Assembly (NCBI GenBank): GCA_021234155.1
Contig: JAJEKV010000006.1
Span: 25,292,369 to 25,356,368, forward strand
DNA length: 64,000 bases
From: Isoetes taiwanensis
Taxonomy: Eukaryota; Streptophyta; Lycopodiopsida; Isoetales; Isoetaceae
Direction of reading: 5' to 3'
The notes below the pieces were generated by a model that was not told the DNA's origin, ran no database searches, and was given only the letters and a program-made list of their open reading frames with translations. This document shows, piece by piece, positions 8,300-64,000 of this stretch (position 1 is its first letter; the number at the start of each line of letters is the position of its first letter). Both the position numbers and the translations under genes were made by a program.

Positions 8300-8463
8300 T
8301 ATTTGTGCATGAACACTGCGCATGTGTATGCATGTGCATGTGCACATGCATGTGCATGTGTGTGCATATGCATGTGTATTGTGCATGTGCAAGTGCAAGT
8401 GCAAGTGCAAGTGCAAGTGCATGTGCATGTGCATGTGCATGTGTGCATATGCATGTGTACTTG
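8300..8463. repeat. GTGCAT/GTGCAA hexamer microsatellite
   Basis: Repeated GTGCAT units, interrupted by about five perfect GTGCAA units near 8389-8419, then more GTGCAT. It opens several frames on both strands giving His-Met, Cys-Thr or Ala-Ser runs; these are artefacts of the repeat. Confidence 0.92.
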
Positions 8464-34598: not shown

Positions 34599-34789
34599 CA
34601 CAAGGCCCCCAAAAATTAACTCACATTAATAATCACCATTGAAACCAGTATAAGTGTGGCTTTTCATACAGGCAATGTATAATATAAAGAAAAAGCATAT
34701 GCCCTTCATGGTTTTCTAAAACCATTGCTAGTTAGAACTTATTTTTCATACTGATTCTATATTCTAAAGTGGTTTCTTTAAGTCACTAC

Positions 34790-34960
34790 TAGTTTAAGAG
34801 ATGGTTTTTAAGTATACATTTTTGGCATTACTATTTGGGATACTTTAATATACTAATTATCATTCTCCTATTAGTTTGATAGATGGTTTTTAAGTATACA
34901 TTTTTAGCATTACTATCTAGGATGCTCTAATATACTAATTGTCTCATTCTAATAATATGC
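34790..34960. repeat. 82-bp tandem duplication near the left end
   Basis: A unit with ATGGTTTTTAAGTATACATT is present at 34801 and again at 34883, with several substitutions. Each copy ends in TAATATACTAATT. It lies in the subterminal zone of the 9-kb element. Confidence 0.8.
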
Positions 34961-40900: not shown

Positions 40901-41475
40901 TTCAATGCTTTCCCTCTATTTTTCTGAAAGCTGCGATGGAGGCGATGGAGCTCCGATTTCATTTTCAAAATCCTTTCCCTACACGGCGATGGAGCTTCTT
41001 CTACCGTGATATCGCCTTTAGGGGCTTGGATGCTAGGTTCACTTTTTGCTTCAAAATCTGTTTTCCCTACGGGCGGAGCTGTTCCTCGCATGTCGATCTC
41101 GTCGTGGTATAGTCAATAAGGTGCGTGCCTAATTGAAGCGTGTAAGGGCTGTCTGTATGAGATCCATCCGCTTTTATGTTTTTCTTGACCATTTTGAGCT
41201 CGCTCACGGATATGCCATATGTTATAGTTGTTGCGGTGGTTCACCATGACTATCTATTATCTGATAAATTACTTGTATTTTCTTTTCCGGATGGGTCTCT
41301 TCCTTACAATTTTCTTATTGAGTGCTATTTCTTCAAGTTTTATTAGTTTTGCATCTTAACCCTTATATGATATTCTTCCGCAGCCTACTTTTGTATTGCG
41401 GATCTTAAGACATTTAAAGCTTGATGGGCTTTACAAGTACTCAAGAGCTTTGATAACTCGAGGAATAAACTTTAT
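34961..41475. other. Interior of the 9-kb element, no recognised gene
   Basis: AT-rich, with scattered short frames. The longest (36133-36645, minus, 170 codons) lacks any family resemblance. An exon-like minus-strand piece at 38155-38225 (HREKVERARSSQQEAKTKM before a GTGAAT) could be captured but is not identified. A GC-richer patch at about 39950-40190 may be from another source. Confidence 0.4.
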
Positions 41476-42661
41476 TTGTCTCATGCTCTAGTGTTTTTGT
41501 GGCATTTCTTCACGAAAAACAATATTTCACATTCTCTCATGCAGGGTTTAGGGGCTTTTTTCCGATCTTATGTTCTTGCAGACTTTGAAAGCATTGTGGA
41601 GAAGTTTAATAAAATTTTATCTTTGGGTTCTTGCCGTGGTAGGTCCTTGCAGCCAGATATCAAAAGCGATCTAGAGAAGCTCTCCAAAAATTTATGCTAG
41701 GTTCTTGCAATTTTTTTTCTTATGAGGTTCTAGTTTTATGATGGCAGCTCATTTTGGACCTCGGGTGACTCATCACTGCGTATGATGGACTCGGGGCATC
41801 CATGATACATCCTGGTTTGGGTAATTACGCTTGAGAAGTTTTTCTCGATTCTTAGTCTTTCATGCTTAGTTATGCTATAATCATATTTATCATGGTAAAT
41901 TTGAAATCTTGGTAGGTTCGTGGGATCATCGGTCTATTATTATGATCTCAGGGAATGTAGAGACACCGTTTATATGCTTGGTGGTCATCATAAGGGCCAG
42001 ATGTAAAGTTTATTTCCGAGAGTGAGCTAGTTTCTCGCATCAACGACTGCACCTTGCGCCTTTGGAATGTCCGAGATAACACATTTGTATGACATGACTT
42101 CTTATGTTGCTTTCTTTTATTGTAAATACATGAATTTTGAGTTTCTTGTTTGGAGTTCCTGTTTCATCCCATCTTTTGAAAGAAATGAAAATATATTGCT
42201 AAACATTGTCAAATAGTCTCTCTTTTCGATATAGTTGCTTTCCAATCTACGGCATTTGCAAATGGAGATTAACTAACTTTGCTCATTGTTATAGTGCGAT
42301 CCTTTAGGGGTCACATGAATGACAAAACTTTGTGGGGTTGAGTGTCAACGGTGAGTTTATTTCTTGTGGAAGCGAGACAAATGAAGTGTTTGTCTACCAT
42401 AAGGTAAGTACTTAAGACATCTACATTTGTTAATGATTGAACACTCGAGAATGACTTTGAATATTTGTAGGCTATATCAAAACCTATTTACATGTCACAA
42501 GTTTGGAGTTCAAGATGTGGACGAAAAGATGAAGATAGTTCTCATTTTATCGATCTTTGTCTCGTTGGAAAAGTGACAGCCCCACAATGCTGGCTGCAAA
42601 TAGCGAAGGGACAATAAAGGTCCTTGTGCTCTCTGTTTGATTTTGTCTGTCTCTGGCATAT
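41476..42661 (+). pseudogene. COP1/SPA-type WD40 gene fragment with introns
   Basis: Four exon-like blocks match the C-terminal WD40 propeller of COP1-like proteins. They contain SVYYYDLRECRDTVYM (about 41934-41981), DCTLRLWNVRDN (about 42045-42080), [20 protein letters not shown] (about 42330-42390; the block ends in VYHK at a GTAAGT donor) and AANSEGTIKVLVLSV plus a stop (42613-42660). The last matches the carboxyl end of COP1. COP1 is a RING/WD40 ubiquitin ligase that represses light signalling. RING and coiled-coil parts are not seen. The block at 41476-41700 may be an upstream exon, but this is weak. Frameshifts occur in the last exons. It is a captured genomic segment. Confidence 0.82.
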
Positions 42662-43671
42662 TAAGGCCAACGTGCCATTATAAAAATGCTGGTGAGACTG
42701 ATTCTGCTAGTCATTTTTCCCAATGGGACCATCCATTGGCTATGTAAAGTACCACCAAAGGTTAGGAGACCTTGTTGGTCGTCAATTTTGACTTGTGTAG
42801 TTACAAGTTCCTCTGGATAATACCATTTCCAGATTATGGAAAGAGGTGTATGGCTGATATTATTGTACTTTTATAACAAAATTCAATGGAAAAAAAAATT
42901 GAGCATCTTGGTCTTCTGTAGTATTTGCTTTTGTAATCAAAATACTGATAATAAGCAAGTTTGGATTAAAAAAAAAAGAAAAAGAAAAATGCTAAAATGA
43001 ACCATATGCTGAAATAATACTAATTAATTAGGTGACATCACAATTTAGAACCATGTAAAAAAAATCGCGAACCCTCAAATATTATTACGCTAATACATGA
43101 AGGTTGAATACTATGGTCTCTTATCGTATTACCAAACTTGCCACATGAAGCACAGTAAGGTTGATATTATGAAAAATAAAACACACTAGTTTTTGACATT
43201 ATCATAGAAGAAAAATAGAAGAAAAATCATAATGGTATATCTAAACCAAGCATAGTTTTATTGACAATTAGTCACTATAAAATACCATAATAATTATACA
43301 CTAAAATAACAAAGATGATTAATCGCTGTAAAATATCATACTAATTACGCACGTAAAATTACAATGTCAATAAACCAAGGATAATAGATGTGATCAAATA
43401 TCATTCCGATAAATTTGATAAATTAAGCAGTAGCACATATCATATATTCAAGTTGTCTTAAAAACTAGCTATAAATTATCATCTTTCAATACCATGTGAA
43501 GAAACACTATTCGTATGTCATGTTACTAAACTGTATTGATGAACTATATGGTATAACTAGACATGATTTGTAAACTTTTTGGCCCACATACCGGTATTGA
43601 TTTTAGGAGTTGATTTTTACCATGAAATCATTAGAAAAAGGTCATACTAATTCAATTTTGGGGGCCTTGTG

Positions 43672-44679
43672 ATAGAAAGTGCCCATCATCTAATGCAACG
43701 ACTGTGCAGGAACAATCTTCCCTTTGGAGGCAAACATTTCATTGCCTCTGGAGATTTTAGACAAGTCGCACCTGTCGTAAAGGGAGGGGGAAGAAATGCC
43801 GCATATAATGCATCCATAAAATCCTCGCCGTTGTGGTAAACTTTTCGTGTGATGAGATTGGAAGAACCGATACGTAACGCAGATGACCCTGAACTAATGA
43901 AATTTGTCGATCATATAGGAGAAAATTGGGAGGAGTCGACGGTCTCACTAGATATATTCAATATAACTACTAGCGTAGAAGATAGCATTGAATTTTTGTA
44001 TCCGTCTGACGTATTGCGAAATCCAGCTTCATGCAAGACACGAAATACATTGTCGACAATTAATAAAAGTGTTGATAGCTTCAACGATCGCATTCTTAAT
44101 AGAGTTCCTAATCATGACAGATTGTATTATAGTCACGACCACATCACGGAGCAAGATGAAATCATACATGACCACCCCTATGCAACTTCAGATTTTCTTA
44201 ATCACTTCACACATTCTGGAATACCCAACCATGAACTGAAGCTTAAAGTAGGGGCCGTATGCCGCATTATAAAACGATTGGACATGGAAAAGGGCCTGGT
44301 AAAAAATGCGAGAGTTATGGTCGTGTCAATGCACGCAAAATTTGTCATGGTGAAAGTACTAGACGAGGCATCCCAGGACGATGCATGTACATACCCAATT
44401 TCTAGAACTGACTTTTTCTATCAACCAGAGAACCGGCCCTGGACCATTCATAGACGACAATTGCCACTCTGTTTATCCTATTCGACCACCTTCAATAGCT
44501 GCCAGGGGCTAACATTGGATCGCGTTGTCATTGACCTGCGTGCCGATGTATTTGCACATGGCCAGTTATATACGGCTCTTACTCGCATGCGGAAGAGAGA
44601 AGACGCACTCATCCTCCTCTCACCAGAGAATACATCGAGGCGTACCAAAAATATCGTCTATAAAGAGCTCCTCTGTTGA
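43672..44679 (+). pseudogene. Helitron helicase, C-terminal half
   Basis: Resumes in frame from ATA (43672). Motif III area reads FIASGDFRQVAPVV (about 43738-43779). A TAA replaces one codon after SSPLW (43836-43838). From 43849 a 276-codon frame is open to TGA at 44677-44679 and contains KNARVMVVSMHAKFVMVKV, the STTFNSCQGLTLDRVVIDLR box and FAHGQLYTALTR, i.e. the late helicase motifs typical of Helitron PIF1-like proteins. The carboxyl end is close to the normal helicase end. Confidence 0.9.
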
Positions 44680-46351: not shown

Positions 46352-46369
46352 CACAACAAGAGAATGGAC

Positions 46370-46900
46370 ATTTAGCGACGTGGGCTTGCGACGCGTCGGC
46401 GGGCGACGTGGACGTCGCCAAATAACGCCACCATCTTGCGACGCAACGCGATGTCCACGTCGCAGACACCGCCGCGCGGCGCGTGTGGTGCGACGTCGAC
46501 ACGTGGCGTGGCGCATCCGCCATGCCAGTGGGCGCCATGCCCGGTGGGACGGCGGTGTGTCACGCCCAGTGGGCTTTTGACGCCGTCGGCCGCATGCGAC
46601 GCATAAATGCTTGGCCCATGCGTTACCGCCGGGTGGGCTTGGGCCCGTGGGCCGGCGGAGTGTGTCTCCAGTGGATGTTTGACGTGGCGTGGCCGCATGC
46701 ACGGCGTCGTATATGTGACATTATATGTGACGTATGTGTCGTATATGACACGCCAAGACGTATATATGACGTATGTGGCGTATATGACACGTCGATGCAT
46801 TGCATATGTGGCGTATATGACACGCGGTGATGTATATGTGACGATATGACACGCGTCGAGCACGCATATGTGACGTAGGTGGTCGCATGTGACGATATTT
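46370..46900. repeat. CACTA left subterminal repeats
   Basis: Starts GC-rich with repeated GCGACG and GACGTGG words, then changes to alternating TATATGACACG, GTATATGTGACG and GACGTATGTG motifs in both orientations. Such clusters bind TNPA-like protein in known CACTA elements; binding here is inferred. Open frames across it are compositional artefacts. Confidence 0.8.
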
Positions 46901-47127
46901 TTTATATACGAAGGTTAATGGTTTTTAGGATTACAAATTCAATAGTCATTCGATTGATACCGCCTAAAAAGACTCGACGACCAACCCGCAGCCTTCATTT
47001 TAAGCGTGTTACTGCGCATGCATCATCACGATAGATATGCTACCGCTTATAAATTGTTCATTATAAAACCGACGTTGTTCGCGGTCAAAATCTAGTTGTT
47101 CCAAGTTTACAATCCTTTGAAGGTAAC

Positions 47128-49299
47128 TTGACAATAGGCTTGTTGTCAATCATTGTTCTTAGAGAGAAGAACAGGATAAAGCCTTTAAAATTTGTGCAAG
47201 AACACAAGAAAAATCCCACACTTTTACCTTTTGTCCGGCCAAGCATTATAGTGTTTAATATGACTTGCGGTACCGCTTTGTCCCGAGGCGCCCTAATGGC
47301 GGATTCTAGGTTTAGGTCGATGGCGAATCAAACATAGCGTTAACTCAAACATCCCAAGAAAAGGGATTTATTGATTATTGACCGATTGATCTGTCCATAT
47401 CAATGCGCTTCATCAGTCTTTTCCGAAGTAATCTTATCTCTAGATGTGAAAGAGAATGGTCATTTAGCGACGTGGGTTTGCGACGTCAATTACCTCCTTC
47501 ATCTAGACTCTTCAAAACCGAATCATGGAAAAATGGTTTTTTGGGGGCTTTAAGAGCTTGCAAGAGCTTGAAAAATATTGTCGGAACTATATCGAAACCA
47601 AAGAAGCACATATGGATACCGCCAATGTGGGGAAGAAGGTTATGATCTAAAATCTCATCTTTGGATATACAAGTAATTTAATGGCACTATGGAAGTTGAA
47701 AGATCAACATCAAGGTTGGAATCGGCAGCAATGCTTGAACTTGCAACTTTACCGCCAAACGCCCGATGATTTTGTGATATATGATGGTGGAGGAATTTAT
47801 GTTTCAATTGCACAAGTTCCATATGAAGCCGGAACCCCATTGATGAGGATTTTGAAAAGCCGAGATACTATGTGGCTACACCGTTGATGGCCTTGTTTGG
47901 AGATCCATACATGGAAAGTGGAATTGAACATAGCTCGTCGCTCACGCCAAGAAGAGTATCTAAACCGCCACCGTTACCTTGGAAGTCTTCAAAGCGAGCA
48001 TGTCATGGTGCAAAGGAAAATGGGCTTCAGCCTGGAGCTTAGGGATCACAAGGCGGTTGAGCTTGCCGACATCGCGGGGGGTTCTTCACGAACACCCAAT
48101 ACCGAAAAACAGACCTCTCTTCTGCTCCTACATGCCAAAATCAGATCCTTTGGTGCAGTTTTTAACGCCATGCTCGGGGATTGTTTTCGCTTCATGACTC
48201 ATGAACTTGTTCCGCTTTGAGCGCCTAAGATTTTATGGGTTGCTGGCCGATCGATTGTATGATCCGACAAACACAACATACAAGAGCAAAAAAAATCATG
48301 CTTTTTTTCGAGAAATCTCTTAACCTGGTTTTTTTAATTTCTTCATTATGGCCATTCTGAGGTTGTGGAGGCTGTTGCCTTCTTGGACAAGTTTGTTCAT
48401 CGAAAATCAAGAGAATTGTGGAGTTGGTTGAACCAAAATATTTTAATTGGTCATCTAGCAAAATGCTTTGGGAAGAAAAAATAAGTGTATTCTCTCGCAA
48501 CATTCATTCTAGAACTTTCTACAACATTCGAATTTTCTAGAAGGATTCCCTTAGGCTCACCCAAGATTCTCTTATATTTTAAAACTTTTTAAAACTTTCT
48601 AGAACATTCTAGAACTTTCAGATATGTGACGATGTGACATATGTGTCGTAGAAGGTCGCATGTTCCGTGAAAGGCACCATCTTCATTGTGCCCTTAAGCC
48701 CCAAGAAGCACATGAACTTTTAGTGTGAGCATTTCTAATGGATTGAGCTTCATCCGCAATAATTCTAAACCACCTAATGTTCTGGATAGCAGATTCCTTA
48801 GCCCTGGGGTCGCTTCTTTTCATCCTCTTCGATGGCTTTTTCAGAATTTAGAACAAATGGTTCCATATGTAGTAAGCACAATGTCGTGGCTTACAAAATT
48901 CAACACAATTTATTCTTCTCTCGATCTTCATGGTATATGTACACAGATAGTTTTGATGATGGTACTACTTTTTCCTTCAATTCATGTTCCCATTGTTTTT
49001 AAAGCGATTTAGGGCAAAACAATCAAGGTGCAAACAATCGGGGTTGGCAAGGAGTATAGAAAATGATGCGCCATCTTTAAGAGAGCTTGATTCACGTTTG
49101 ATAATCGAGCCATCGCGCTACAAAAGTTGACCTAGAGGATATTATGCTAGACACTCCACGTGATATTTCGTGGTGGATCTAGTTGGCTCTCAAGATAGTG
49201 TAGATTGGTTAGATAAGAAAGTCCTTGAGACTGGCATTTCATTTCGCGGCTTGTGCAACCAAGTGGGGCAACTTGATTTGATAACCGATTCTGCGTTGG
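47128..49299 (+). other. CACTA interior with unassigned coding-like pieces and an internal terminus copy
   Basis: At 47450-47484 a 33-35 bp copy of the left terminus (AGAGAATGGTCATTTAGCGA, then CGTGGGTTTGCGACG) recurs in direct orientation. Coding-like pieces at 47681-47887, 47897-48220 and 48358-48483 have plant-like codon use but match no family I recognise. A small GTGACG/GTGACATATGTG cluster lies at 48622-48662. Short AGATTC-like words occur at 48540-48570. Confidence 0.5.
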
Positions 49300-49669
49300 A
49301 TTTTTGTTTCAGCTCGTCATTCCAAAAAATCAACGCACACATTTGCCTTATGCGATGGAATTGTGGAGAAAAAAAGATGAAAATCAATGCATGTGGAAAT
49401 TTAGATATCGTTATTGGGATAGTTCCCAAAGTTATGTCTTCACAAAAGGTGGAGCAGATTTGTCAAGGCAAAAGAATTTGCGTGTGAATGATGTGGTTTC
49501 GTTTGAGAGAGATATCCAAGGTAAAAAATTTTACATCAATCATGGGCTAAGGATCCTTTCGCCGGTGCCGGAAATTGTTGTTGATGAGGATGCAAATGCC
49601 CCTTGCGTAAAGTTTTCAGCCGTTTGGAGTCGATATTTGGTATTGAAGCAACTTAAATTCTATCTTTGA
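49300..49669 (+). pseudogene. B3 DNA-binding domain, RAV/NGA-like, inside the CACTA element
   Basis: A 121-codon open frame (49304-49669) holds most of a plant B3 domain: LVIPKNQRTHLP near the start, WKFRYRYWDSSQSYVFTKGG in the middle, and KNLRVNDVVSFERD followed by KKFYINHGLR. In RAV/NGA proteins, [20 protein letters not shown] and LRAGDVVSF fill these places, so the DNA-contacting core is conserved. TTTTGTTTCAG directly before LVIPK looks like a splice acceptor, so this may be a 3' exon; the first B3 strand is not visible. The domain frame has no stops, unlike the nearby transposase. It could be a captured host exon or a gene used by the element. Marked pseudogene because no full gene is seen. 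Confidence 0.82.
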
Positions 49670-50559
49670 TATAACTATAATATGGTAGTTTTGAGCTCGA
49701 TTAGCTCCCCGGTTGATCCGTAATTTTTGAGCTCTAATTTAGCTTATGGTTGATCCAATTTTTGAGGCACCGCCTTTATGTATATAAGCATGATGTAGAA
49801 TACAAAACTGGATATATGATATGATATAGATTTTAAATCGGCTTTTCAAAATGGAATTTGAAGATAAAAATATGAAGAAGATGAATATGATCGTGGATGG
49901 ATATCAAGAAGATGAATGCCACGATGAATAAGGATATGACAATAATATTGCTTGTTTTAATTTATATAGGCCTATTTGTGCTATGGGTATTTTGAAAAAG
50001 CAGATGAATTTAGTGATGGACATGGAGTTGGAGATGGTTGATCCGCAATTTTGAGCTCATAATTTAGCTTCGGTTGATCCGGAGAAAGAGAAAAAGAAGG
50101 AATTAGAAATGACATATGGATTTACCCCCTAGAATTTCTACAACCAGAAGATTGGGTAGTCAAAAGTGGGACTCCCATATCCTCACCCAACATCTTTAGA
50201 GAAGCAACAAAATGCAATCCCCGAATGAGGAACTTGGTGTCCAAAGATAGTGGGAGAACCGCTTCCTCGACGACTCCTTGCAAATCCAAGGCATTAATGT
50301 CCCATGTGTCAAAGCTGCCCCGATCAAAATTTGCCTAAAATGCCATCGCCCACCGCATCGCCACGACAAATGTCACAAGAAATGTCGAATTGCCACGCTA
50401 ATTTGCTTTCTCGTGGATGCAAAACTAATCAAGCTTATGTTCAAGTGTTTTGAGGTATGCAGATTTTAGGTTGTTACACAAAACTTGCTCGATTTTTAGG
50501 TTGCTCGTAAGCAAAGATAGGTATACATAAATTTCATAACAGGCAAATGTCACGCGACA
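49670..50559. other. No recognised gene
   Basis: AT-rich. GTTGATCCG plus TTTTGAGCTC words recur at about 49712, 49752, 50036 and 50075, a loose repeat. No family recognised. Confidence 0.4.
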
Positions 50560-50825
50560 AATGTCACGACAAATGTCGACGCCGCGCATGCGACGTCATG
50601 TGACATTGGCTTAACCTAATTACGCCAAGACGTGCCGCCATCGCGGTAACGCCAGTCGCATGTGACTGGATTTTGACCGATTGACTATATCGCCGTGATG
50701 CGACGTGGTCTACACGACGATGACACGTATGCACGCATTTGCCGGTGTAACGCCAAAGTCGTAGGTGACCCGCATGTGACCGTTGACACACGTCCGGGCG
50801 ACGCCACGCCGCGATCGCGACGCTT
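50560..50825. repeat. Second CpG-dense, subterminal-like block within the CACTA element
   Basis: Repeated GTCACG, ACAAATGTC, GTGATGCGACG, GCATGTGAC and CGCCACGCC words, similar in kind to 46370-46900 and 57080-57160. An internal block of this type suggests a nested CACTA border or an internal duplication of the end. Confidence 0.6.
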
Positions 50826-51142
50826 GATTTATATAAAACAACTTTTTTCGGCAGATTCATTGTTATTTTTTTCGCTTCCTCTTCGACCTAGCGCTTTGGT
50901 GTTCTTCTTTTAACCATATCTTATACTTGTTAAGCGCCCTACATGGATCGCCATGGTCAATTTGATGATCGACGCACGGAGATGGCCAGAGAGACATTGA
51001 TGTTGTCTTACCACCGGGGGAGGCTGGATATATGAACTGATCACATGTAAGTTATCGATTCTTGTATTTAGTAGCCTAGACATATATAAACTAGGAGAGG
51101 ACGGTAATCGCGAAAGTAGTAAAAAAAAAAACGCAGTGTTTT

Positions 51143-51420
51143 TGGTCAAGGATACCTGGCCGCCTCCACCTTGAGTGGAGAGGACCAGGTGTGCCAGCCC
51201 AAACTCACCTTCATACCTTACTAAGTACAATGTAGATTACAAAATTGAGGTGTCGCGTAGTCAAGGTCATATGTCGACTTCACCTTGAGTGGAGGGGACT
51301 CTATGTATCTGGGCTAGCGCCTCCAAAAGATCTTTATTGAAATTGAAACTTATATAAGGGTCAGACGTGAAAGGGCATGGTCGGCTTCACCTTGAGTGGA
51401 GAGGACTACGTGTCCGGGCC
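51143..51420. repeat. Three dispersed copies of a CACCTTGAGTGGAG unit
   Basis: CACCTTGAGTGGAG followed by (A/G)GGAC occurs at 51167, 51281 and 51388 (spacings 114 and 107 bp). Each is preceded by a C-G-C/A-C-T-T/C-C context and followed by a GGGC(C/T) word about 25 bp later. The rest of each unit has diverged. Confidence 0.75.
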
Positions 51421-51430
51421 CACCGGCCCA

Positions 51431-51476
51431 TTTAGGATTTAGGGTTTAGGGTTTAGGGTTTAGGGTTTAGGGTTTA
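51431..51476. repeat. Interstitial telomeric repeat (TTTAGGG)n
   Basis: One degenerate TTTAGGA, five perfect TTTAGGG units, and a partial unit. Arabidopsis-type telomere sequence, here inside the transposon and far from any visible chromosome end. Short telo-box arrays can also act as promoter elements. Confidence 0.93.
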
Positions 51477-51888
51477 TACTACCATATATTGTATCTATCA
51501 CACTGCTCAAACTATTGTGCAAAGATATAGTACTTACCTTTTGTAATTGGCGAGGGACAAAATAGTTTCATGCATTGTAAAAGATGTATGGGGGGAAGAG
51601 ACGACTTAGAACGGTTGTTGAAGACCATCCGATAAGATTTGGTACATTTGAACAACCCACCGATCTGATGCTCGTCATGGATATCAAAGTTGGTATACAA
51701 TTATTATTTGTTTTTTTTTTTTTTTTAAGAGTATCTCTCCCAATTCAAGTATATATTCAAGATGTTTATGATATCTAAATATGTAGGTAGATGATGCCGA
51801 TGTCTCCTCCAAACTAGATGTGGATTTTGGTTTAATGTTGTCCATAGAGGCATATGAAACCTGAAGCAGAACCCGATTCATCAATAAT

Positions 51889-52608
51889 GTGGATGGGTGT
51901 GCCAACGCCGAAAGTGTTCCCCGCAGGAAAGAACACGGTAAGGGCTACAATCATGAGAACATTGCATGTGTCGTGACATTTTCCCAAGAACGCTTTGGCC
52001 TCACCGCCGAAAGCGTGAAATTTCAAGAATTGCAAAGATTAGTCCGACCTTTGTTAGGCAATCAAGAAGACATTTGGCTTGTGGCCAGAGACTTACCTAT
52101 CCCTATGGATCAAGAATTTGCTTATTGGGGAAGAAGATACATCATTATGCGGAGCCGCATTTGTCCGTGGTCGATTCGGCTTTTATCTCCCAGACGCTGT
52201 GATAGAAGTGGAGCGAGATACCCACATTCCATTAATGCCATATGTGTCCCGAGTACGATTGGAAAACTTGGCAAACTTTGACTAAATATGCTTGGCGATG
52301 AGGATTTATGGAATGAATTCCAATGCCGCGATAGAAAATGGGGGGCATGTGATGAGGAGTTGAAGTTTATTGATGGTCGGCCGTGGGTTCATGGCAATAT
52401 TGCAGGGTTCATCAACAGTTCTATTGACAAACCGTGAGCGATGCAATTGTGAATTTTAGAGTGTCAAGGAGGGGAGGAAGATTTTTTTTTACAAGATCGT
52501 AAAAAGCGTATATATCATGGTGTGTGCTATTAAAAGCATAAACATTGGAGATGAGTTATTTATCAACTATCGCTATGATAGACCTCTCCCATTTGAGATG
52601 GAACAATA
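51889..52608 (+). pseudogene. SET-domain-like methyltransferase relic
   Basis: Frames shift, but the order of motifs is that of a SET domain. VRGRFGFYLPDAVIEVERD (about 52165-52221) is upstream, GRPWVHGNIAGFINSS (about 52376-52424) resembles the SAM-binding N-x-x-x-F-I-N-H-S motif with the His changed, and SINIGDELFINYRYDRP (about 52540-52590) matches the C-terminal G-E/D-E-L-x-x-x-Y motif with its tyrosine. SET enzymes methylate lysines, mostly on histones. The N-x-H catalytic pair is altered and there are at least two frameshifts. It lies between the B3 domain and TNP2. Confidence 0.6.
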
Positions 52609-52927
52609 GTATTGTTGTAAAAAAAAGGAATAAAGAGGTTTTTTTAATATGTTTTTGTCATTCGTGAGTCTATACAAAATGGTTGTATGTATTTTATACT
52701 TATTACATTATTTGACATGATGGTTAATAATGTTACTCCCTCGCTTAATGAACTCATTCAGAGCGGTTCCATCCCGATCCATTAGTTCTAAGTTACGGTG
52801 CAAAGGGAAACCTATCGCCGTGGAATTTCAAGCCGAGAGCGCACCAATATGAAGATATTGCGCACGATCAATATGAAGAGGATGAAACTATTGACTTAAC
52901 CCGAGAACGAAGTCTTTGTGATTTGCC

Positions 52928-53400
52928 GATGCTCAATATGTTGCACGCCTTCAAGAATTACCCGATATTGATTTAGATGATGTCGAGGATGGTGGTGGAG
53001 AGGATATGGTAGAAGATGTTGATACCTTCGAGGATTGGTCGACCGACGATGACCCTATTGTTATCGAAGGGTAAAACGCAGCTTATTTCCGCGGCTCTAA
53101 CCTCTCGCTTGTCTGGCGGCCTCGCTAATTCTCAATCTCCAAACCAAGTTCAAGTGGAGCAATGCAAGTGTCTCTGCCTATTGAGGTGACATACTTATCA
53201 AGTCTTTCTATCTTACCACCATCTCCATCTTTTATCTTACCACCTTAGATGCGCAGTTATTGCACGAGAAGATCCTTCCAGAGAAGAACAATATGCCTAC
53301 CGACAGATCTCAAGTTAAGAAAATGATTCGCCGACCGGCCTTGGTTATAAAGTCATACATGCATGTCCAAATGATTGTATGATCTTCTATCCCCACCGAA
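52928..53400 (+). pseudogene. CACTA TNP2 transposase, N-terminal part
   Basis: A strongly acidic open stretch (52928-53074; DIDLDDVEDGGGEDMVEDVD) ends in TAA. After a gap with an acceptor-like TTAG at about 53248, AQLLHEKILPEKNNMP and then, one frame over, LGYKVIHACPNDCMIFY (about 53341-53391) appear. The latter matches the conserved L-G-Y-x-x-I-x-A-C-x-N-D-C motif of TNP2 proteins. Frameshifts show decay. TNP2 is the CACTA transposase that cuts the element ends. Confidence 0.85.
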
Positions 53401-54752
53401 AGCATGAGAAGTCCACTCATTGTCTCGACATGTAATGAACCGAGATACAGGAATGACCTAAAGGGAAAAACGGTACTCGCATAAGGTTATTCGACACTTT
53501 CCAATAATCCCAAGGTATATGCATCACCACTTCTTACAAATAGTTGTAAATTCACTTATTTTCTAGACTTATATGTTGCCTATAATTTATTCTATAGGTT
53601 AAAGTTGATGTTCCGTTGTAAAGACATTGGCTAGCCTAATGGATTCTCACGGCCACACATGCATCTAGTGATGATGTGATGCGAGTCCCGAGCGACAAAG
53701 AAGTTTTGAAGCATGTCGCGACATGGCCCCGACTTTTGAAAAAGAACCACGTAACGGGCGCTTGGGCCTCGCCACCGATGGCGAAACTCCATATGGTACA
53801 CAATCGACCGCATGGTCTACATGGCCGCTGATGATAGTGAACTACAACATACCCCCATGGTTGTTGATGAAAGTGGGCACATTATGATGACTTTATTGAT
53901 ACCGGGAAGAAAACCAAGTAATTTAGATGTGTACCCAAGAATAATTGTGGATGAGTTATCCCAGGAACACAGTATTCAGGTCTACGATGCCCATAAAATG
54001 ACGTTTTTAATCTTAGAGGTATACTATTGTGGACTATGCATGACTTTCCGGGGTTTGCCGAGTGTTCGGTTTAAGACATCGGGGCACTTCCCTTGCATGA
54101 TATGTGGGGAAAAGTTGCAAAGACCGCTACCTAAGCATCAAGAAAGTAGTATACTTAGGGTTTTAGGAAGTATTTTACCACGCACTCCCTTCGTAGCAAC
54201 AGACACCAAAGGGCAATCAGAGACTATACGTAACCACCAAGCGTAACTACTATACGCAGAATGGGGAGAGCGTTGGGATAAGAAGGAAGAGGGGGAAAAC
54301 CGCAAGGGGAAATCCGTGGGGGCACTCAAGAATCGAGGAGGTCGAGCCGACCCAGACAAAGGAGGGATGAGGAATTATACAAAGGTGGCGAGGAAGCCGC
54401 GGAGGAGGAAGTCTTTATCGCCAATATGAAAAGGAAGTCTGCTTTTTATAGACTACCATATTGGACCGACCTATTGATTCAACACCTTTTAGACCCGATG
54501 CATATCTTCAAGAACGTGGAAACTTCTTTATGGAAGCATGTATTTGGTCAAAAAAGACACAACAAATGCCGGATGGACCTTAAGGTAAGTAATACAAAGA
54601 AAGAGGCATGGATCCGAGGTGAAGGGCAAACCACTTCCTCCGCAAAATGGGTTATTGCTAGGGCTGACCATCGAGCTATTTATGATGATTTAAGGGCCCT
54701 TAGAACACCAACCGGGTTACATGCAATCATTGCGAACCGCATTCACAAGTAG
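53401..54752 (+). pseudogene. CACTA TNP2 transposase, central part
   Basis: After PRYRNDLKGK and a likely intron, RLGLATDGETPYGTQS (about 53752-53798) matches the N-V-R-L-G-L-A-x-D-G motif. The 53812-54246 region encodes MMTLLIPGRKPSNLDVYPRI, VYDAHKMTFLILEVYY and GHFPCMICGEKL, the DDE-type catalytic core with the CPxC-like finger degenerated to CMIC. The 54426-54752 region has AFYRLPYWTDLLIQHLLDPM followed by HIFKNV, the D-x-M-H-x-x-K-N motif. The matches follow the family order and only small frameshifts divide them. Confidence 0.92.
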
Positions 54753-56420
54753 TAAGGGAGTCGATTGGTTTAAAGTCCCATGATCGCATAAGTTCTTGCA
54801 TGTAAGCAATTGAAGTCCACATATATATGCACTACTATAAAATGTAAACCTATAACTTATATTTGGTGTTTGGATCATGCAGAGTTCTTCATGCCCCGAC
54901 CTTTAGGGGAGTTTTAGACAAGGGACCATTGAGGCAATAAGTGCCCTATCAAAGGTCATAAGGTTGTTACCATGTTGATTTAGTGGTCCCTGCCTATTTT
55001 ATTTGTGGCTAAGTTTTTTGTTTTGGACCTCATAGGTGGATGTAAAAAAAACTATACCGAAAAAGACTAAATTGAAGAGATGAAAGTGAAAATGGCAGAG
55101 GCATGTTGCTTGTTGGAGAAGGAGTTTCCTACGAGCTTTGATACCAAACCCATCTTTTGGTACATCTTATTGAGGAAGTGGAGCTCATGGAACTGCCGAT
55201 GGATGTTTTCTTGGAAAGGTTTATGAAGGTATTGAAGGATATGGGCGCCAAAAGAGCACGCCCAAGGTAGTATGGCAGAGGGATGGCTTATGTAAAGAGT
55301 CACTTTTCTATATGATGAATATATTTCCGCAGACATCCAGATGCACCTCGCTTATGGAGTGATGAAGGGACGAGAAGATTGTGGGGTAGTGGCAGAAGGC
55401 AAATGGTATGCGGTCATTTCACCGATATGATCATTTAGGTTAATCAATTTCTTCTTTACACCCGCACCAATGGCAAAATGGATTGCTCAAGTTATGAGAA
55501 CGCAAAGGAAGAAATGGAAGAGAAGAGGCATGAATGGAGACGACATAATAGACGAGCCTGCACTCGATGGATATGAACCCTTGCCGGACAAGATGGAAAG
55601 AGAATGGGTACTATGTGCTTTGACCGATGATATCACAAGGGGAGTATATTACCACAAGGAATGGGCATACGCACAAGGTGTCATGAAAAAGGTAGTTGCA
55701 ACAAATTATGTTGATGTCGAAATCGAAAGTATTTTCTTTTGATGTTATTGTATCTATTGACATTAATGGTGCTTTTTGATAAAGATATATCTTACTCCTC
55801 GATATGGTGGCATGGGACCCACTATCGTGAGTTCTCTTGACATACGGGTGAAGACTTCAGGATCATGGAGTCATGGCATCATTCACGATGGAGTTTCAAT
55901 CAAGTGTTGCCGATCGTAATATTGTGAAGCCACCCCGTGATTGGGGTCGGGAGGTTAAAGACTATAATGGAGGTGGATGTTGGTGGCAATTTTAAGACCT
56001 TCATATTCGATGTCGATTGGTTTGACCTTCAATTAAGGGGGCCAGCCTACAAGAAAAGTATGATAGAACAAGTGGCTTTTTTCATTGCCAACTCTAGCAA
56101 GATGTACCGGTAGTGAGACGCTTGTCCTTCCGCATAACCGTGTGTACACACATACACATATCCACTTCAAAATTTAGACCATCAATATCAATCTCACGCC
56201 CAACTTCTTTGACCAGATTTTTTTCTTTACCGATCGACAAGACCCAACATGGTGGTTTATCATACAAACTACACCGAGGGGGGACCCAATATTCCAAGGT
56301 GTTGTGCTAGAGGAGTCAATAACGCCTCAAGAGCCCTCCGCAGATCAAGGCATTCAAACTCACCGGAAAACGAGCATCAAGAGGTTGACCACCACCTCAT
56401 GCAAAGATTTACACCGTAGC
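54753..56420 (+). pseudogene. CACTA TNP2 C-terminal domains
   Basis: From about 55080 the frames encode CCLLEKEFPTSFDTKPIFWY then, shifted, IEEVELMELPMDVFLERFMK and VLKDMGAKRARP, which match the DUF4218 region of TNP2. Positions 55470-55742 are an open acidic/basic stretch with no specific match. FKTFIFDVDWFDLQLRG (about 55991-56041) corresponds to the DUF4216 strand VxFKCDWxD. KTQHGGLSYKLHRGGTQYS (about 56239-56295) is the frameshifted continuation. The order supports one long decayed transposase gene. Confidence 0.8.
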
Positions 56421-57079
56421 AATTCCAATAAAATATGTATGTACTTCGTGCATTTTAATACAAATGTTGGTATGTTAACAATGACGACCCTAGTTAGCAC
56501 CTAGAGGAGACGATCATTAAATTTATATGTCAAATATTATGCACATCCTCAAGGTAATCCTCTTCCGATAGGCTATGTCTATTGGTCTTCGTGGTGCAAT
56601 AAAACCCATTCAATTCAATTTTTTTTTTTTCCTCCCCTTTGGTATACATTATATTGGAGGAATAAAGAACTACCGGAACATGGGCTCAAAGAAGCCACAT
56701 AGGCTCAAGCATTGCCTCTAGACTAGAACATGCAAAGAGTCTTCAATGGTATCTTAGTTACTTCCGATTTTTTCTAACCTTAAACCAAAGGCCACCACCA
56801 AGTTAACCTCGATCATTGCTTAATTTGATGCTATCCACTAGCTTTCGTTGTGGATCACCGCTTCACCTTTCAAACAGATAATAATAATGGTATTTTGTAG
56901 GTGAACAAGTCCAAATACATAGAGTGAAGCATGAGGAGCCTATAGATGTTGAACGTAGGCGCATTTCTTTAGGGCCTAAACATGCTACCTAGGTTCAAAC
57001 AAGCCTCTTAGGCTCAAGCATTGTCTAGGCTCAAACATGCCCCAAAGATCAAACATGTACACAACAAAAATAAAAATAG
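56421..57079. other. 3' non-coding part of the CACTA element
   Basis: AT-rich; no gene. From about 56690 to 57060 a degenerate repeat based on AGGCTCAAGCATTGCCT and GGCTCAAACATGCC appears several times. Confidence 0.5.
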
Positions 57080-57184
57080 TTTAAACGACGCCGCTATAAA
57101 AAAATAACGCCGTGATGCGACGTATTGACGCCGCGAGACGCGACGACACGAAATGACGCTTAAAACTCATTTCTTAGTTGGGTG
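57080..57184. repeat. CACTA right subterminal and terminal repeat
   Basis: GACGCCG, GATGCGACG and GACGCGACGACACG words, then AATGACGCTTAAAACTCATT and the degenerate terminus. It is the inverse of the left end at 46352-46390 with several changes. The satellite begins directly after it. Confidence 0.65.
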
Positions 57185-60100
57185 AACATGAGTGGTCTTC
57201 CGGGTCACGTAACTTGGTCCCTAGGGCAACGCCGACGCTCGAGTCCATTGGCGAGCCAAATCGCGATTCGGAGAGAGGGAGGTCGCCTCGCCCGTCCCCG
57301 TGGCCTTGGGGAGAGGAAATTTGGGGCAAAGCGCCTGGGGATTTAGGGTCCGTGGATATGGGGCCAACACCCCCACTCCTGCACTTGGGACTGGCCGAAG
57401 AAGCAGCCGAGAACACGGAGCAAGGGGAACCGGACGAAGCTGAGTTTGGGCCTGTCCTCCTCCGATGTGGCAAGTAGAAGTAGGGGGCTTTGGTAAAGGG
57501 CAAGACATTCATAAATTCGCAATTAATGCATTGTACCTAAAATAAATTTGATTTTTGCCACCGAATCCTAATCCATTTCCAAAGACACAGCCCAATTTTC
57601 AAAAATTTTCTGAGAAGGTCTAGGTCAAAGGGTTAGCATTAGAACGGCCGGGGCAGCCCGCTGTAGGCAACCGAAGCCGGCACCCTTCCCCAAGTCAAAC
57701 GAGGCTGTGGACCTGGGCAGGATCCCTCACAAGAGGGGAGAGTCCCGACCCCAAGAGGCTGGATCCAAAAGTTCCCGAGGCAGTTCTTCCTCGGCAGCAG
57801 CGCCCCGGGCCGCACGCTAATGACCACCCTCCCGAGCCCTGTTCCCTATCCGACCGCTGGATCCTCCGCTCGTGGGCCCCTTCGGAAGGCCCAAAAGATT
57901 CCAGATCGGGTCCGGGAGAACTTGTCAAACCGCTGGGCGCCCCGAGGTCGGCTTTGTAGAAACCGCAGTTGTCTTGTCGTCGGGCACCGGGAGGTTCCGA
58001 ATGGCAAATCGACCCCGCCAAATCGTCCGAATGGCGAAATTACCCTAGGGAGCAAGTTACAAGGTCGGTTTTGCAAAAGAAAGAAACACTCACGCCTCCA
58101 CGACGAAAAGATCCCGCATCCACATCCTAGGCCAATTGACTACGAGTGTGATGGAAGTGAGCTACTTTGGCGCTTCTTGAGGTCGGGTGGTCTTCTTCGC
58201 CACGGAACTTGGTCCCCTGTGGCAACGTCGACGCTCGAGTCCATTGGCGAGCCAAATCGCGATTCCCTGAGAGGGGAGGTCGCCTGGTCCGGCCCCCGTG
58301 GCCTTGGGGAGAGGAAATTCGGGGCAAGCAGCCCGGGATTTTAGGGTCCGCGGCTCAAGGCCAACACCCCCACTCCACGCCAAGTCACGGCGCAAGGTCC
58401 CGCCCCAACCGACAAGGAGAGGGCCTCCAAAACGTAAACCCCGTGGGCTGCTGTGTTCTAGAAGGGTTTATGCTTTGGGGGCCGAGACTTGGTCTGCTGC
58501 ACTTGGGACCGGCCGAGAAGCCGCAGCCGAGAATACGGAGCAAGGGGAACCGACGGAGCGGAGTTTGGGCCTGTCCTCCTCCCGATGTGGCAAGTAGAAG
58601 TCGGGGGGCTTTTGCAAGTGGCAAGACATTCATAAATTCGCAATTAATGCATTGTATTTAAAATAAATTCTGATTTTTGCCCACTGGATTCCTAATCCAT
58701 CTCCAAAGACACAGCCCAATTTTCGAAATTTTCTGGAGAAGGTCTAGGTCAAAGGGTTAAGATTAGAACGGCCGGGCAGCCCGCTGTGGCAACCGAGCTG
58801 GCACCCTTCCCCAAGTCAAACGAGGCCAGGACCTTGCAGGGATCCTCACAAGAGAGGGGAGAGTCCCGGACCCCAAGAGGCGGATCCAAAAGTTCCCGAG
58901 GCAGCTCTTTCCCGGCCGGCCTCCCGGGGGTCAGACGCTTAATGACCACCCCTCCCGAGCCCGGGTTCCCTATCCGACCGCTGATCCTCCGCTCAGGCCC
59001 CTTCGAAGGCCCAAAAGATTCCAGATCGGTCCGGAGAACTTGTCAAACCGCTGGGCGCCCCGAGGAGGGCCTTGTAGAAACCGGGCAGTTGTCTTGTCGC
59101 TCGGGCACCGGGAGGTCCGAATGGCAAATCGACCCCGCCAAATCGTCCGAATGGCAAAAAATTACCCTAGGGAGCAAGTTACAAGGTCGGTTTTGCAAAA
59201 GAAAGAAACACTCACGCCTCCACGACAAAGATCCCGCATCCACATCCTAGGCCAATTGACTACGAGTGTGATGGAAGTGAGCTACTTTGGCGCTTCTTGG
59301 AGGTCGGGTGGTCTTCTGGCCACGGAACTTGGTCCCTAGGGCAATGTCGACGTTCTGAGTCCATTGGCAGAGCCAAATCGCGATTCCGGAGAGGGGAGGT
59401 CGCCCGTCCGTCCCCAGGGCCTTGGGGAGAGGAAATTCGGGGCAAGCAGCCTTCCCGGGGATTTTAGGGTCCGCGGCTCAAGGCCAACACCCCCCACTCC
59501 ACGCCAAGTCACGGGCGCAAGGTCCCCCCCGACCGACAAGGAGAGGGCCTCCAAAACGAAACCCCGTGGGCTGCCGTGTTCTAGAAGGGTTTGGCGCTTT
59601 GGGGGCGGAGACTTGGTCTGTTGCACTTGGGACCGGGCCGAGAAGCCGCAATGAGAATGAATACGGAGCAAGGGGAACTGACGGAGTGGAGTTTGGGCCT
59701 GCTCTCCTCCCGATGTGGCAAGTAGAAGTCGGGGGCGCTTTTGCAGTGGCAAGACATTCATAAATTCGCAATTAATGCATTGTACGAAAATAAATTGATT
59801 TTTGCCACCTGAATCCTAATCCATTTCCAGCACACAGCCCAATTTTCAAATTTTGGAGAAGGTCTAGGTCAAAGGGTTAGATTAGAACGGCCGGGGCAGC
59901 CCGCTGTAGGCAACCGAGCCGGGCACCCTTCCCCAAGTCAAACGAGGCCGTGACCTTGCAGGGATCCCTCACAAGAGGGGAGAGTCCCGACCCCAAGAGG
60001 CTGGATCCAAAAGTTCCCGAGGCAGCTCCTTCCCCGCGCCGCCCCTGGGGGCTGACGCTTAATGACCACCCTCCCTGAGCCCTGCCTCTATCCCACCGCT

Positions 60101-63100
60101 GGATCCTCCGCTCAGGCCCCTTCGAAGGCCCAAAAGATTCCAGATCGGTCCCGGGAGAACTTGTCAAACCGCTGGGCCCCGAGGTCGGCCTTTGTAGAAA
60201 CCGCGCAGTTGTCTTGTCGCTCGGGCACCGGGAGGTTCCGAATGGCAAATCGACCGCCAAATCGTCCGGAATGGCTTAAATTACCCTAGGGAGCAAGTTA
60301 CAAGGTCGGTTTTGCAAAAGAAAGAAACACTCACGCCTCCACGACAAGATCCCGCATCCACATCCTAGGCCAATTGACTACGAGTGTGATGGAAGTGAGC
60401 TACTTTGGCGCTTTTTGAGGTCGGGTGGTCTTCTCGCCACGGAACTTGGTCCCTGTGGCAATGTCGACGCTCGAGTCCATTGGCGAGCCAAATCGCGATT
60501 CCTGAGAGGGGAGGTCGCCCGTCCGGCCCCTGTGGCCTTGGGGAGAGGAAATTCGGGGCAAGCAGCCCGGGATTTAGGGGTCCGTGCTCAAGGCCAACAC
60601 CCCCACTCCACGCCAAGTCATGGCAAGGTCCCCGAATCGACAAGGAGAGGGCCTCCAAAACGTAAACCCCGTGGGTTGCCGTGTTCTAGAAGGGTTTGGC
60701 GCTTTTGGGGCCGAGACTTGGTCTGTTGCACTTGGGACTCGGCCGAGAAGCCGCAGCCGAGAATACGGAGCAAGGGGAACTGACGGAGCGGAGTTTGGGC
60801 CTGTCCTCCCCGATGTGGCAAGTAGAAGTCGGGGGGCTTTGCAAAGTGGCAAGACATTCATAAATTCGCAATTAATGCATTGTACGAAAATAAATTTGAT
60901 TTTTTGCCACTGGAATCCTAATCCATTTCCAAGACACAGCCCAATTTTCGAAATTTTTGGAGAAGGTCTAGGTCAAAGGGTTAAGCATTAGAACGGGTCG
61001 GGCAGCCCCAAGGTGGCAACCGAGCTGGCACCCTTCCCCAAGTCAAACGAGGCCAGGACCTCTGGTGGATCCCTCACAAGAGGGGAGAGTCCGGACCCCA
61101 AGAGGCTGGGATCCAAAAGTTCCCGAGGCAGCCCTTCCCGGCGCCCCCGGGGTCGTGACGCTAATGACCACCTCCCCGGAGCCCGGCTCCCCTATCCGAC
61201 CGCTGATCCTCCGCTGGGGCCCCTTCTGGGAAGGCCCAAAAGATTCCAGATCGGTCCGGGAGAACTTGTCAAACCGCTGGGCGCCCCGAGGTCGGCCTTG
61301 TAGAAACCGGCAGTTGTCTTGTCGCTCGGGCACCGGGAGGCTCCGAATGGCAAATCGACCCGCCAAATCGTCCCGGAATGGCGAAATTACCCTAGGGAGC
61401 AAGTTACAAGGTCGGTTTTGCAAAAGAAAGAAACACTCACGCCTCCACGACAAGATCCCGCATCCACATCCTAGGCCAATTGACTACGAGTGTGATGGAA
61501 GTGAGCTACTTTGGCGCTTCTTGAGGTCGGGTGGTCTTCTCGCCACGGAACTTGGTCCCTGTGGCAATGTCGACGCTCGAGTCCATTGGCGAGCCAAATC
61601 GCGATTCTGAGAGGGAGGTCGCCTGGCCCCATCCCTGTGGCCTTGGGGAGAGGAAATTCGGGCAAGCAGCCCGGGGATTTTAGGGTCCGGGCTCAAGGCC
61701 AACACCCCACTCCACGCCAAGTCACGGCGCAAAGGTCCCCCCGAACCGACAAGGAGAGGGCCTCCAAAACGAAACCCCGGTGGGCTGCTGTGTTCTAGAA
61801 GGGTTTGCGCTTTGGGGGCCGAGACTTGGTCTGCTGCACTTGGGACCTGGCCGAGAAGCCGCAGCCGAGAATACGGAGCAAGGGGAACCGACGGAGCGGA
61901 GTTTGGGCCTGTCCTCCTCCCGATGTGGCAAGTAGAAGTCGGGGGTTTTTAAAGGGCAAGACATTCATAAATTCGCAATTAATGCATTGTACCTAAAATA
62001 AATTTGATTTTTTTGCCACTGATTCCTAATCCATTTCCCAGCACACAGCCCAATTTTTAAAAATTTCTGAGAAGGTCTAGGTCAAAGGGTTAGCATTAGA
62101 ACGGCCGGGGCAGAGTTTGTGGCAACCGAAGCTTGGGGCACCCTTCCCCAAGTCAAACGAGGCCAGACCTTTGCAGGATCCCCACAAGAGGGGAGAGTCC
62201 CGACCCCAAGAGGCGGGATCAAAAGTTCCCGAGGCAGTTCTTCCCTGGCAGCCCCCGATGGGGTCAGACGCTTAATGACCACCTCCTGAGCCCTGCCTCT
62301 ATCCAAAATCGCTGATCCTCCGGCTCAGGGCCCCTCTTCGGGAAGGCCCAAAAGATTCCAGATCGGGCCCGGGAGAACTTGTCAAACCGCGGGGCCCCGA
62401 GGGTCGGCCTTGTAGAAACCGCAGTTGTCTTGTCGCTCTTTGGGCACCGGGAGGCTCTTGAATGGCAAATCGACCGCCAAATCGTCGGAATGGCTTAAAT
62501 TACCCTAGGGAGCAAGTTACAAGGTCGGTTTTGCAAAAAGAAAGAAAACACTCACGCCCCACGACAAGAGATCCCGTGATCCACATCCTAGGCCAATTGA
62601 CTACGAGGTGATGGAAGTGAGCTACTTTGGCGCCTTTTTTTGGAGGTCGGGTGGTCTTCCCGCCACGGAACTTGGTCCCTGTGGCAACGCCGACGCTCGA
62701 GTCCATTGGCGTAGTCAAATCAGCGATTCCGGGAGAGGGAGGTCGCCTTGGTCCCTGTGGCCTTGGGAGGGAAATCCAAAAGCTTCCCGGATTTTTAGGG
62801 TCCGTTCAAGGCCAACACCCCACTCCACGCAAGTCACGCAAGGTACACCGACAAGGAGAGGTCCCAAACGGAAACCCGTGGGCTGCTGTGTTCTAGAAGG
62901 GTTTCTTGCTTTTGGGGGCCGAGACTTGGTCCGTTGCACTTGGGACCGGGCGAGAAGTCGCAGCCGAGAATACCGGAGCAAGGGAACCGACGGAGCGGAG
63001 TTTGGGCCCGTCCTCCTCCCGATGTGGCAAGTAGAAGTCTGGGGCGCTTTTTGGTAAAAGGGCAAGACATTCATAAATTCCGCAATTAATGCATTGTACT

Positions 63101-63990
63101 AAAATAAATTTGATTTTTTGCCACCTGGATTCCTAATCCATTTCCAGCACACACCCCAATTTCGAAAATTTCTGAGAAGGTCTAGGTCAAAGGGTTAGCA
63201 TTAGAACGCCGGGCAGCCCGCTGCCAGGTGGCAACCGAGCTGGCACCCTTCCCCAAGTCAAACGAGGCTGTGACCTGCGTGGATCCCTCACAAGAGGGGA
63301 GAGTCCGACCCCAAGATATGGATCCAAAAAGTTCCCCAGGCAGCTCTTCCGCGGCAGCCCCCGAGGGGGTCCCAGACGCCAATGACCACCTCCCAGGAGC
63401 CTGGTTCCCTCTATCCGACCATTGGATCCTCCTCGCTCAAAGGGTCTCCTTTCGGGGCAAGGCCCAAAAGATTCCATCGGTCCCGAGAACCTTGTCAAAC
63501 CGCTGGGCGCCCCTGGTGGCTCTGGCCTTGTAGAAACCGGCAGCTGTCTTGTCGCTCGCACGTGCAGTCTCCACGGCAACGACCCCAAATCGTCCTATCG
63601 CGCAAATTACCCTAGGGCGTTACAAGGCCTGCCTTCAAAAAGAAAGTTAAACACTCACGCCTCCCACTCACAAGAGATCCCTAAGACCACATCCCAGCCA
63701 ACTGGATCACGGTGTGGCTGAAGTGATTACCATTTTGGAGGCTTCCCAGGCCCCGCCACCAACTTGGGGTCCCTCAGCAAACGCCTGACGCGCCCGAGTC
63801 CATTGGCCAGAGTCAAATCGCGACCCGGAGGGGAGGTTTTCCGCCCGGCCCCGTGGCCTGTAGGAGGAAACGCCTGGATTTTAGGGTCCGCGTTCGCCAC
63901 CACCCCACTCCATCAGCCAAGCCCGCCAGGGCGTCCGCCTGTAACTTACAAGGAGAGGGCCCAAAACAGCAATACGTAACTGAACGAAGC
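57185..63990 (+). repeat. Tandem satellite with units of about 1.1 kb
   Basis: Seven landmark copies of GAGTCCATTGG lie at 57241, 58237, 59357, 60473, 61579, 62699 and 63796 (spacings 996, 1120, 1116, 1106, 1120 and 1097). A second landmark, GACATTCATAAATTCGCAAT, recurs at 57505, 58625, 59753, 60853, 61960 and 63066. Units are GC-rich except for an AT-rich core of about 60 bp around the second landmark. Copies differ mostly by single-base indels in G or C runs. Unit 1 lacks about 130 bp between CCCACTCC and GCACTTGGGAC. The copy from about 63.6 kb is clearly more diverged. No coding frame persists between units. Confidence 0.95.
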
Positions 63991-64000
63991 AAATTGAGTT

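Follow-up and report, generated by a model that had tools for sequence, protein, structure and literature searches.

A probable CACTA (EnSpm) transposon lineage with a SET-domain gene directly 5′ of TNP2, represented by a decayed element of Isoetes taiwanensis

A decayed TNP2 transposase and its neighbouring domains

We analysed a stretch of 64,000 nt from Isoetes taiwanensis (assembly GCA_021234155.1, contig JAJEKV010000006.1, positions 25,292,369-25,356,368 of the forward strand), hereafter called the window, in which positions 46352-57184 hold a candidate CACTA (EnSpm) transposon. On its plus strand lie a B3 DNA-binding domain, a decayed SET domain and a TNP2 transposase (Table 1). With a probability of about 0.68, we read this region as a decayed member of a CACTA lineage in which a SET gene, located directly 5′ of TNP2, has been kept by selection.

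The TNP2 announced by the initial annotation is indeed there, in a frameshifted form: with stops read as X, it matches the Pfam family Transposase_21 at E 3e-16. The transposase by which CACTA/EnSpm elements are recognised is thus found both in the window and in L002, a related element described below (E 1.1e-62), and no Harbinger-type family is among the Pfam matches listed. Further downstream, the short pieces assigned to DUF4218 and DUF4216 have no Pfam match when taken by themselves and owe their assignment to tblastn with L002. Regarding the other CACTA features, subterminal GCGACG arrays are present and a left CAC terminus is matched, while the right one is weak. An Rfam search of the window returned nothing, and NCBIfam gave irrelevant weak matches only.

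Table 1. Features of the candidate element (window coordinates) and the SET gene of the related element L002 (coordinates of L002)
Feature	Position	Strand	Basis or remark
Left terminus	46352-46393	+	CACAACAAGAGAATGG...; TAGCGACG at offset 21, a feature of both L002 ends
CpG-rich subterminal array	46352-46905	.	GCGACG words up to 46596, then ATATGTGACG-type repeats; CpG observed/expected (o/e) 1.56
Possible right end	47437-47448	-	CACATCTAGAGA, 2/12 mismatches; would close a separate 1.1-kb element (46352-47448); weak alone
Second left-terminus copy	47444-47485	+	36 bp, 94% to 46358-46393; first six bases altered
RAV/NGA-type B3 domain, possibly outside the SET-TNP2 element	49277-49669	+	Open frame of 130 aa; Pfam B3 E 3.1e-9
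Internal GCGACG array	50590-50822	.	Shortly 5′ of the SET gene; the left terminal array of L002 is at the corresponding place
Decayed SET domain	52093-52606	+	Pieces 52093-52161, 52169-52282, 52282-52434 and 52460-52606
Frameshifted TNP2 (Transposase_21 region and flanks)	53104-54737	+	Pfam; comparison with L002
DUF4218-like transposase part, decayed	55071-55414	+	tblastn with L002 E 1e-6; Pfam only E 0.11
DUF4216-like part, decayed, weak	56193-56432	+	tblastn with L002 E 0.002; no Pfam match
Right CpG-rich stretch and weak terminus	57081-57184	-	CpG o/e 2.60
L002 SET open reading frame (ORF)	1834-2616 (L002)	+	260 aa, intact; Pfam E 6.2e-6, 27 bits (cut-off 22.4), profile 1-104/105

The SET gene in the window and in related elements

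A decayed SET domain had been proposed about 2.4 kb past the B3 domain, and this proposal holds. The SET region ends with a stop at 52607, followed by AATAAA at 52629. With stops taken as X, a single-frame reading of positions 52400-52612 matches the Pfam SET model at E 0.0038 (18 bits, below the cut-off of 22.4), and the same piece within a longer frame (52400-56500) reaches just E 0.18. A composite joined across frames matches at E 3.4e-6 (27.9 bits, above the cut-off), and the reversed composite has no Pfam match. Since this composite was pieced together by eye, it is the independent test with the SET of L002 that carries weight.

Relatives were sought with the TNP2 piece 54282-54752 across prokaryote genome contigs. 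Two of the 77 pattern matches encode relatives, on the contigs L001 and L002 of a single metagenome-assembled genome (MAG) titled uncultured Trichormus sp. (G001), an assembly of 5.9 Mb that is mostly cyanobacterial. Protein scans and a DNA-pattern scan of viral contigs revealed no relative. The fern Azolla has Trichormus (Nostoc) azollae as its symbiont, and we therefore read L001 and L002 as fern DNA that was presumably binned with the symbiont. The finding of Transposase_21 in only one of 217 genomes of the cyanobacterial family, namely this MAG, and in none of 14 control genomes supports this origin. The MAG holds further plant-like contigs with CACTA pieces (L021, L030 and L031 besides L001 and L002); among them, L021:47-660 matches the right end of L002 with 79-93% identity. 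Symbiont bins may thus supply copies of host transposons.

L002 (9,076 bp) contains a CACTA element of 8.9 kb (68-8935) with CAC...GTG inverted termini, each end showing CACTACAACA and, at offset 21, TAGCGACG. It has 19 GCGACG/CGTCGC words, none of them farther than about 210 bp from one end of the element; the window has 20, of which 17 lie between 46375 and 57145. On the same strand as its intact SET gene, and 3′ of it, L002 encodes a transposase that matches, in addition to Transposase_21, DUF4218 (E 1.6e-31) and DUF4216 (E 0.006, under the cut-off).

When the SET protein of L002 was compared with the whole 64 kb of the window, it matched positions 51997-52582, directly 5′ of TNP2, at E 4.9e-12 (1.1e-10 without composition adjustment). 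As controls, the best of 200 shuffled queries reached E 0.015 and the reversed query E 0.68. The two SETs have in common the blocks DGRPxxxGNIAGxINSS and WGRRxII, and the order and strand of SET and TNP2 agree between the elements. Spacing is also comparable: WGRR lies 955 nt from LILNLQ in L002 vs 999 nt in the window, and 2211 vs 2363 nt from LDPMH. Finally, the elements have similar left termini and the subterminal word GCGACG in common.

We also looked at the other copies in the MAG. DUF4218 occurs at four places, on L002, L001, L030 (C247) and L031 (C316). L001 is about 81% identical to L002 in DNA over the longest match; its contig ends inside the SET gene, of which the last 49 codons are kept 5′ of TNP2. 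The L030 contig stops short of the SET region. The SET gene is therefore seen in both of the two close copies that reach the region. Six matches to the SET model were found in the MAG; one is L002 itself (L008), and among the others L005 matches the L002 SET at E 0.02 while L006, L007, L009 and L010 have no match at E<=1.

Over the last 49 SET codons, L001 and L002 have a dN/dS of 0.163 (dS 0.652, dN 0.106), to be compared with 0.139, 0.345, 0.105 and 0.191 in the four transposase regions. Fisher tests on the rounded SET counts gave p 4e-5 and 1.5e-4. As judged from these substitutions, the SET gene shows purifying selection, like the transposase. It was initially suggested that other copies be checked for both B3 and SET: the SET gene does recur, whereas L002 lacks the B3 domain.

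It could be argued that the B3 and SET domains are both host fragments caught by chance, and that a SET was caught again, by an unrelated event, in the family of L001 and L002. Indeed, both domains lie 5′ of TNP2 in the window, and CACTA elements of Chenopodium are described with captured fragments 5′ of the transposase, one of which, from AP2, is found in three species (PMC8978399). It is nonetheless unlikely that the same divergent SET was captured twice at the same place and on the same strand. Furthermore, the SETs of the window and L002 match each other but no solved SET chain, and the L002 SET has an unbroken, constrained frame of 260 aa. We hence regard this double chance capture as quite improbable and prefer a single capture by a shared ancestor, with selection thereafter. 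The SET gene is likely a native component of the lineage. Because of the shared SET-TNP2 arrangement, the homology with L002 and the low dN/dS, a selected lineage component is the most likely reading of these sequences, rather than a chance capture.

Several points speak against a SET gene kept by selection in this lineage. The dN/dS of the SET comes from 49 codons only, and L001 is itself decaying, with stops in all four transposase regions, a decay that would raise dN/dS. A single assembly, of probable rather than documented fern origin, supplies both outside copies. The distant, decayed TNP2 of L031 has no SET match, in a contig where only about 1.3 kb lies 5′ of it. Neither the window ends used (ATT / AAC, with an uncertain right end) nor L002 (CTA / ATG) displays a visible 3-bp target duplication. 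The window SET is a pseudogene and gives no sign that the window copy was active. Finally, the SET motifs are divergent, with NSS for NHS and NY for DY relative to the consensus.

The B3 domain and the limits of the element

The initial annotation's RAV/NGA-type B3 core is confirmed. Among solved proteins, the B3 frame matches RAV1 at E 7.7e-15, TEM1 at 1e-13 and NGA1 at 1.8e-10. In an ungapped block of 51 residues it is identical to RAV1 at 27/51 positions and to NGA1 at 23/51, RAV1 and NGA1 being identical to each other at 40/51. An AlphaFold2 model of the frame, computed without alignment, had a mean pLDDT of 34.9 and was useless. At 48507-48619, 0.7 kb 5′ of the domain, lie TTCTAGAA-type repeats, which we take to resemble heat-shock elements.

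It had been argued that the B3 frame is clean and TNP2 is not, in favour of selection or later capture. This argument is not confirmed. TNP2 contains open stretches of 163 and 156 aa, both exceeding the 130-aa B3 frame. At the frame-change densities of TNP2 and SET, which are our own minimum counts (5 in about 1.5 kb and 3 in 0.514 kb, respectively), a clean B3 core is expected with P 0.26-0.47 and a clean 390-bp frame with P 0.10-0.27; the contrast between B3 and TNP2 is therefore unsupported. We also simulated neutral decay from RAV1 down to 27/51 identities, with 2000 runs per setting. A clean frame was left in 0.15% (indel ratio 0.1), 1.9% (0.05) or 19% (no indels) of the runs, and in 0%, 0.65% and 14% when NGA1 was the starting point. 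On these figures, much of the B3 divergence was probably gained while the sequence was protein-coding, in a host gene or in an element, two histories between which the simulation cannot distinguish; moreover, the domain was noticed for its cleanness.

Is the B3 domain part of the element? L002, which covers both termini, lacks it. In the whole 5.9-Mb MAG, a search with the B3 model stays empty at E<=1, and the window B3 protein gives a single, unconvincing match at E 0.74; because the assembly is mostly cyanobacterial, this absence is informative for L002 alone. WGRR lies 2063 nt from the left terminus in L002 vs 5774 nt (from 46352) or 4682 nt (from 47444) in the window, and the B3 domain sits left of SET, in the extra 2.6-3.7 kb that have no counterpart in L002. 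No Pfam family was found in region 47480-49060, in three frames.

The ends of the element bear on the same question. With a terminus profile built solely from the two ends of L002, position 46352 ranks first among 127,944 window positions, with a score of 19.6 vs maxima of 11.0-16.1 in five shuffled windows. The second left terminus makes the boundary of the window element ambiguous, and the B3 domain may thus lie outside the SET-TNP2 element, in a neighbouring or nested one. Sites like the possible right end at 47437-47448 are expected about 2.9 times per shuffled 64 kb, and the end at 47448 ranks about 863rd with the L002 profile; what supports it is solely that it adjoins the second left-terminus copy. 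Downstream of the internal array we noted by eye a TATA-like box (50830-50837) and an ATG (50943), which we read as the promoter of the SET gene. A terminus at this array scores 7.2 (17th) in one scoring and 12.2 (2nd) with the L002 profile, within the range of the shuffle maxima. Such a terminus would place B3 outside the SET-TNP2 element. The plant telomere unit TTTAGGG is repeated 6.6 times between the internal array and SET, at 51431-51476. At the other side, the right terminus is weak: shuffles do equally well in 0.65% of cases, and the L002 profile ranks 57182 only about 158th and 57184 far down. Given this weak right end, the lack of a target duplication and the second left terminus, the initial delimitation of one element spanning 46352-57184 is not confirmed.

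We considered that B3 and SET may form one element-borne system, in which B3, as a TnpA-like binder of the CpG-rich arrays, would bring SET to the copies. B3, SET and TNP2 do lie on one strand between the left terminus and the weak right end, the rarity of clean frames after simulated decay from RAV1 is consistent with evolution while coding, and CACTA subterminal-binding proteins are described in PMC2613891 as unrelated from one element to the next. Against this stand the absence of B3 from L002, its position in surplus DNA beside the second terminus copy and left of the internal array, where it may be outside the SET-TNP2 element, and the limits of a simulation that is blind to host vs element and was applied to a domain picked out for being clean. 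In addition, CACCTG, the site bound by host RAV/NGA proteins, has a single occurrence in the element and is missing from the CpG-rich arrays. A joint B3-SET system thus appears very unlikely. Of the system initially proposed, the transposon-borne SET stands and the B3 part, absent from L002 and located in surplus DNA, is not supported. SET appears to be a conserved component, as opposed to B3, a probable one-off capture. Most likely, the B3 domain does not belong to the conserved set and is either a captured RAV/NGA-type fragment or the cargo of a neighbouring or nested element.

Outside the element, frames of 344, 429 and 279 aa (at 30267, 31412 and 43840) in 30267-44676 resemble by eye pieces of a Helitron replicase/helicase. 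Positions 57185-64000, with a G+C of 0.56-0.58, have similar frames about every 1.1 kb by eye, like a long tandem array.

Possible role of the SET protein and relation to known systems

Catalytic SET domains have the consensus motifs RFINHSC and ELxxDY. The corresponding residues are INSS and ELFINY in the window, and INSS and EIFVNY in L002. By eye, the L002 SET has the GxG motif, the motif-III Asn and the motif-IV Tyr. PDB sequence searches with the SET composites, the L002 SET and a profile (A2) retrieved no SET chain, and one PCNA chain at E 0.069; the L002 SET and the profile including the window SET found no solved chain at E<=1. Since the two SETs match each other yet no solved chain, the elements appear to share a divergent SET group. 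An AlphaFold2 model of the L002 SET without alignment was useless (mean pLDDT 31.2).

In both the window and L002, a stop and an AATAAA, noted by eye, precede TNP2, and the SET would be expressed as a separate protein. We predict it to be a lysine methyltransferase. Acting as such, it may modify chromatin, or an element protein, at the copies of the element, and the modified copies would escape silencing. We propose this anti-silencing mechanism tentatively, as a possibility somewhat short of even odds.

Alternatively, the SET may be a structural or transposition factor that is no longer a histone methyltransferase, or may methylate a non-histone protein such as the transposase. The changes of NHS to NSS and DY to NY in both elements would fit this, as would an L002 ORF farther 5′ that weakly matches Transpos_assoc (E 0.0072, under the cut-off) and that a GT-AG intron placed by eye at 1735-1833 would join in phase to SET. 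Conversely, the catalytic-motif residues that L002 retains, and the naming of SET genes in other transposons as lysine methyltransferases in the title of a reference of PMC12730594, speak for an enzyme, and we hold a non-histone role to be rather unlikely.

Other candidate genes were noted on these contigs. On the minus strand of L002, 600-1420 and 6400-7900 are candidate exons, without Pfam family, of an opposite-strand gene possibly enclosing SET and TNP2; it is perhaps the putative TNPA-like gene of the lineage. L031, the contig with the distant TNP2, also has on its minus strand a 428-aa frame (4867-6150) in which a Cys-rich stretch resembles Dof by eye, a likeness unconfirmed by Pfam.

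The association of a SET domain with a transposase has precedents. In primates, SETMAR joins a mariner transposase to a SET gene of the host; SET and transposase are associated there as they are here, where SET is a separate frame within the transposon. No paper combining CACTA, a SET domain, a B3 domain and transposons was found, nor any report of a plant CACTA-borne SET among the matches listed, in a search to which Repbase reports and most subscription papers were external. According to PMC12730594, SET methyltransferase genes are on record in HarbingerS and Phytophthora MuDR families, likewise DNA transposons with a SET gene beside the transposase. These belong to other superfamilies, the cited MuDR having oomycete hosts, and the likeness is one of description; unlike HarbingerS, the window and L002 elements have TNP2, the plant-type CACTA transposase. 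The same source describes fungal EnSpm and other transposons carrying a TET/JBP dioxygenase. These too are EnSpm-type transposons with an acquired enzyme of epigenetic marks, but the enzyme is of the DNA demethylation type and the elements are fungal and of a different EnSpm branch (PMC12730594).

In plants, PMC5735166 presents VANC of the VANDAL Mutator-type elements as an established anti-silencing factor. The element SET resembles it in proposed role only, namely anti-silencing directed at own repeats; the target of VANC is DNA methylation, and its activity has been demonstrated (PMC5735166). En/Spm, Tam1 and Tgmt* have TNPD/TNP2 plus a TNPA-type binder and share TNP2, CAC termini and subterminal arrays with the present lineage; the passages on them in PMC2613891 make no mention of SET. 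Finally, the gene-capturing CACTA elements described in PMC8978399 contain foreign coding DNA, including an AP2 fragment, 5′ of the transposase and are a likely model for the B3 domain. Unlike such cargo, the SET gene is present again in a related element, where it is intact and constrained.

What these sequences add to this record is a SET gene that accompanies a plant-type CACTA transposase under apparent purifying selection. A bolder scheme, to which we give little credence, is that a dedicated, divergent CACTA SET methyltransferase rewrites chromatin at the copies of its own element and that, in at least one branch, an acquired RAV-type B3 reads the GCGACG arrays and guides it; if true, the B3-guided SET would be a transposon-borne, self-targeting epigenome editor. 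More immediately, the intact frame of L002 makes the use of histone methylation by a plant transposon against silencing directly testable.

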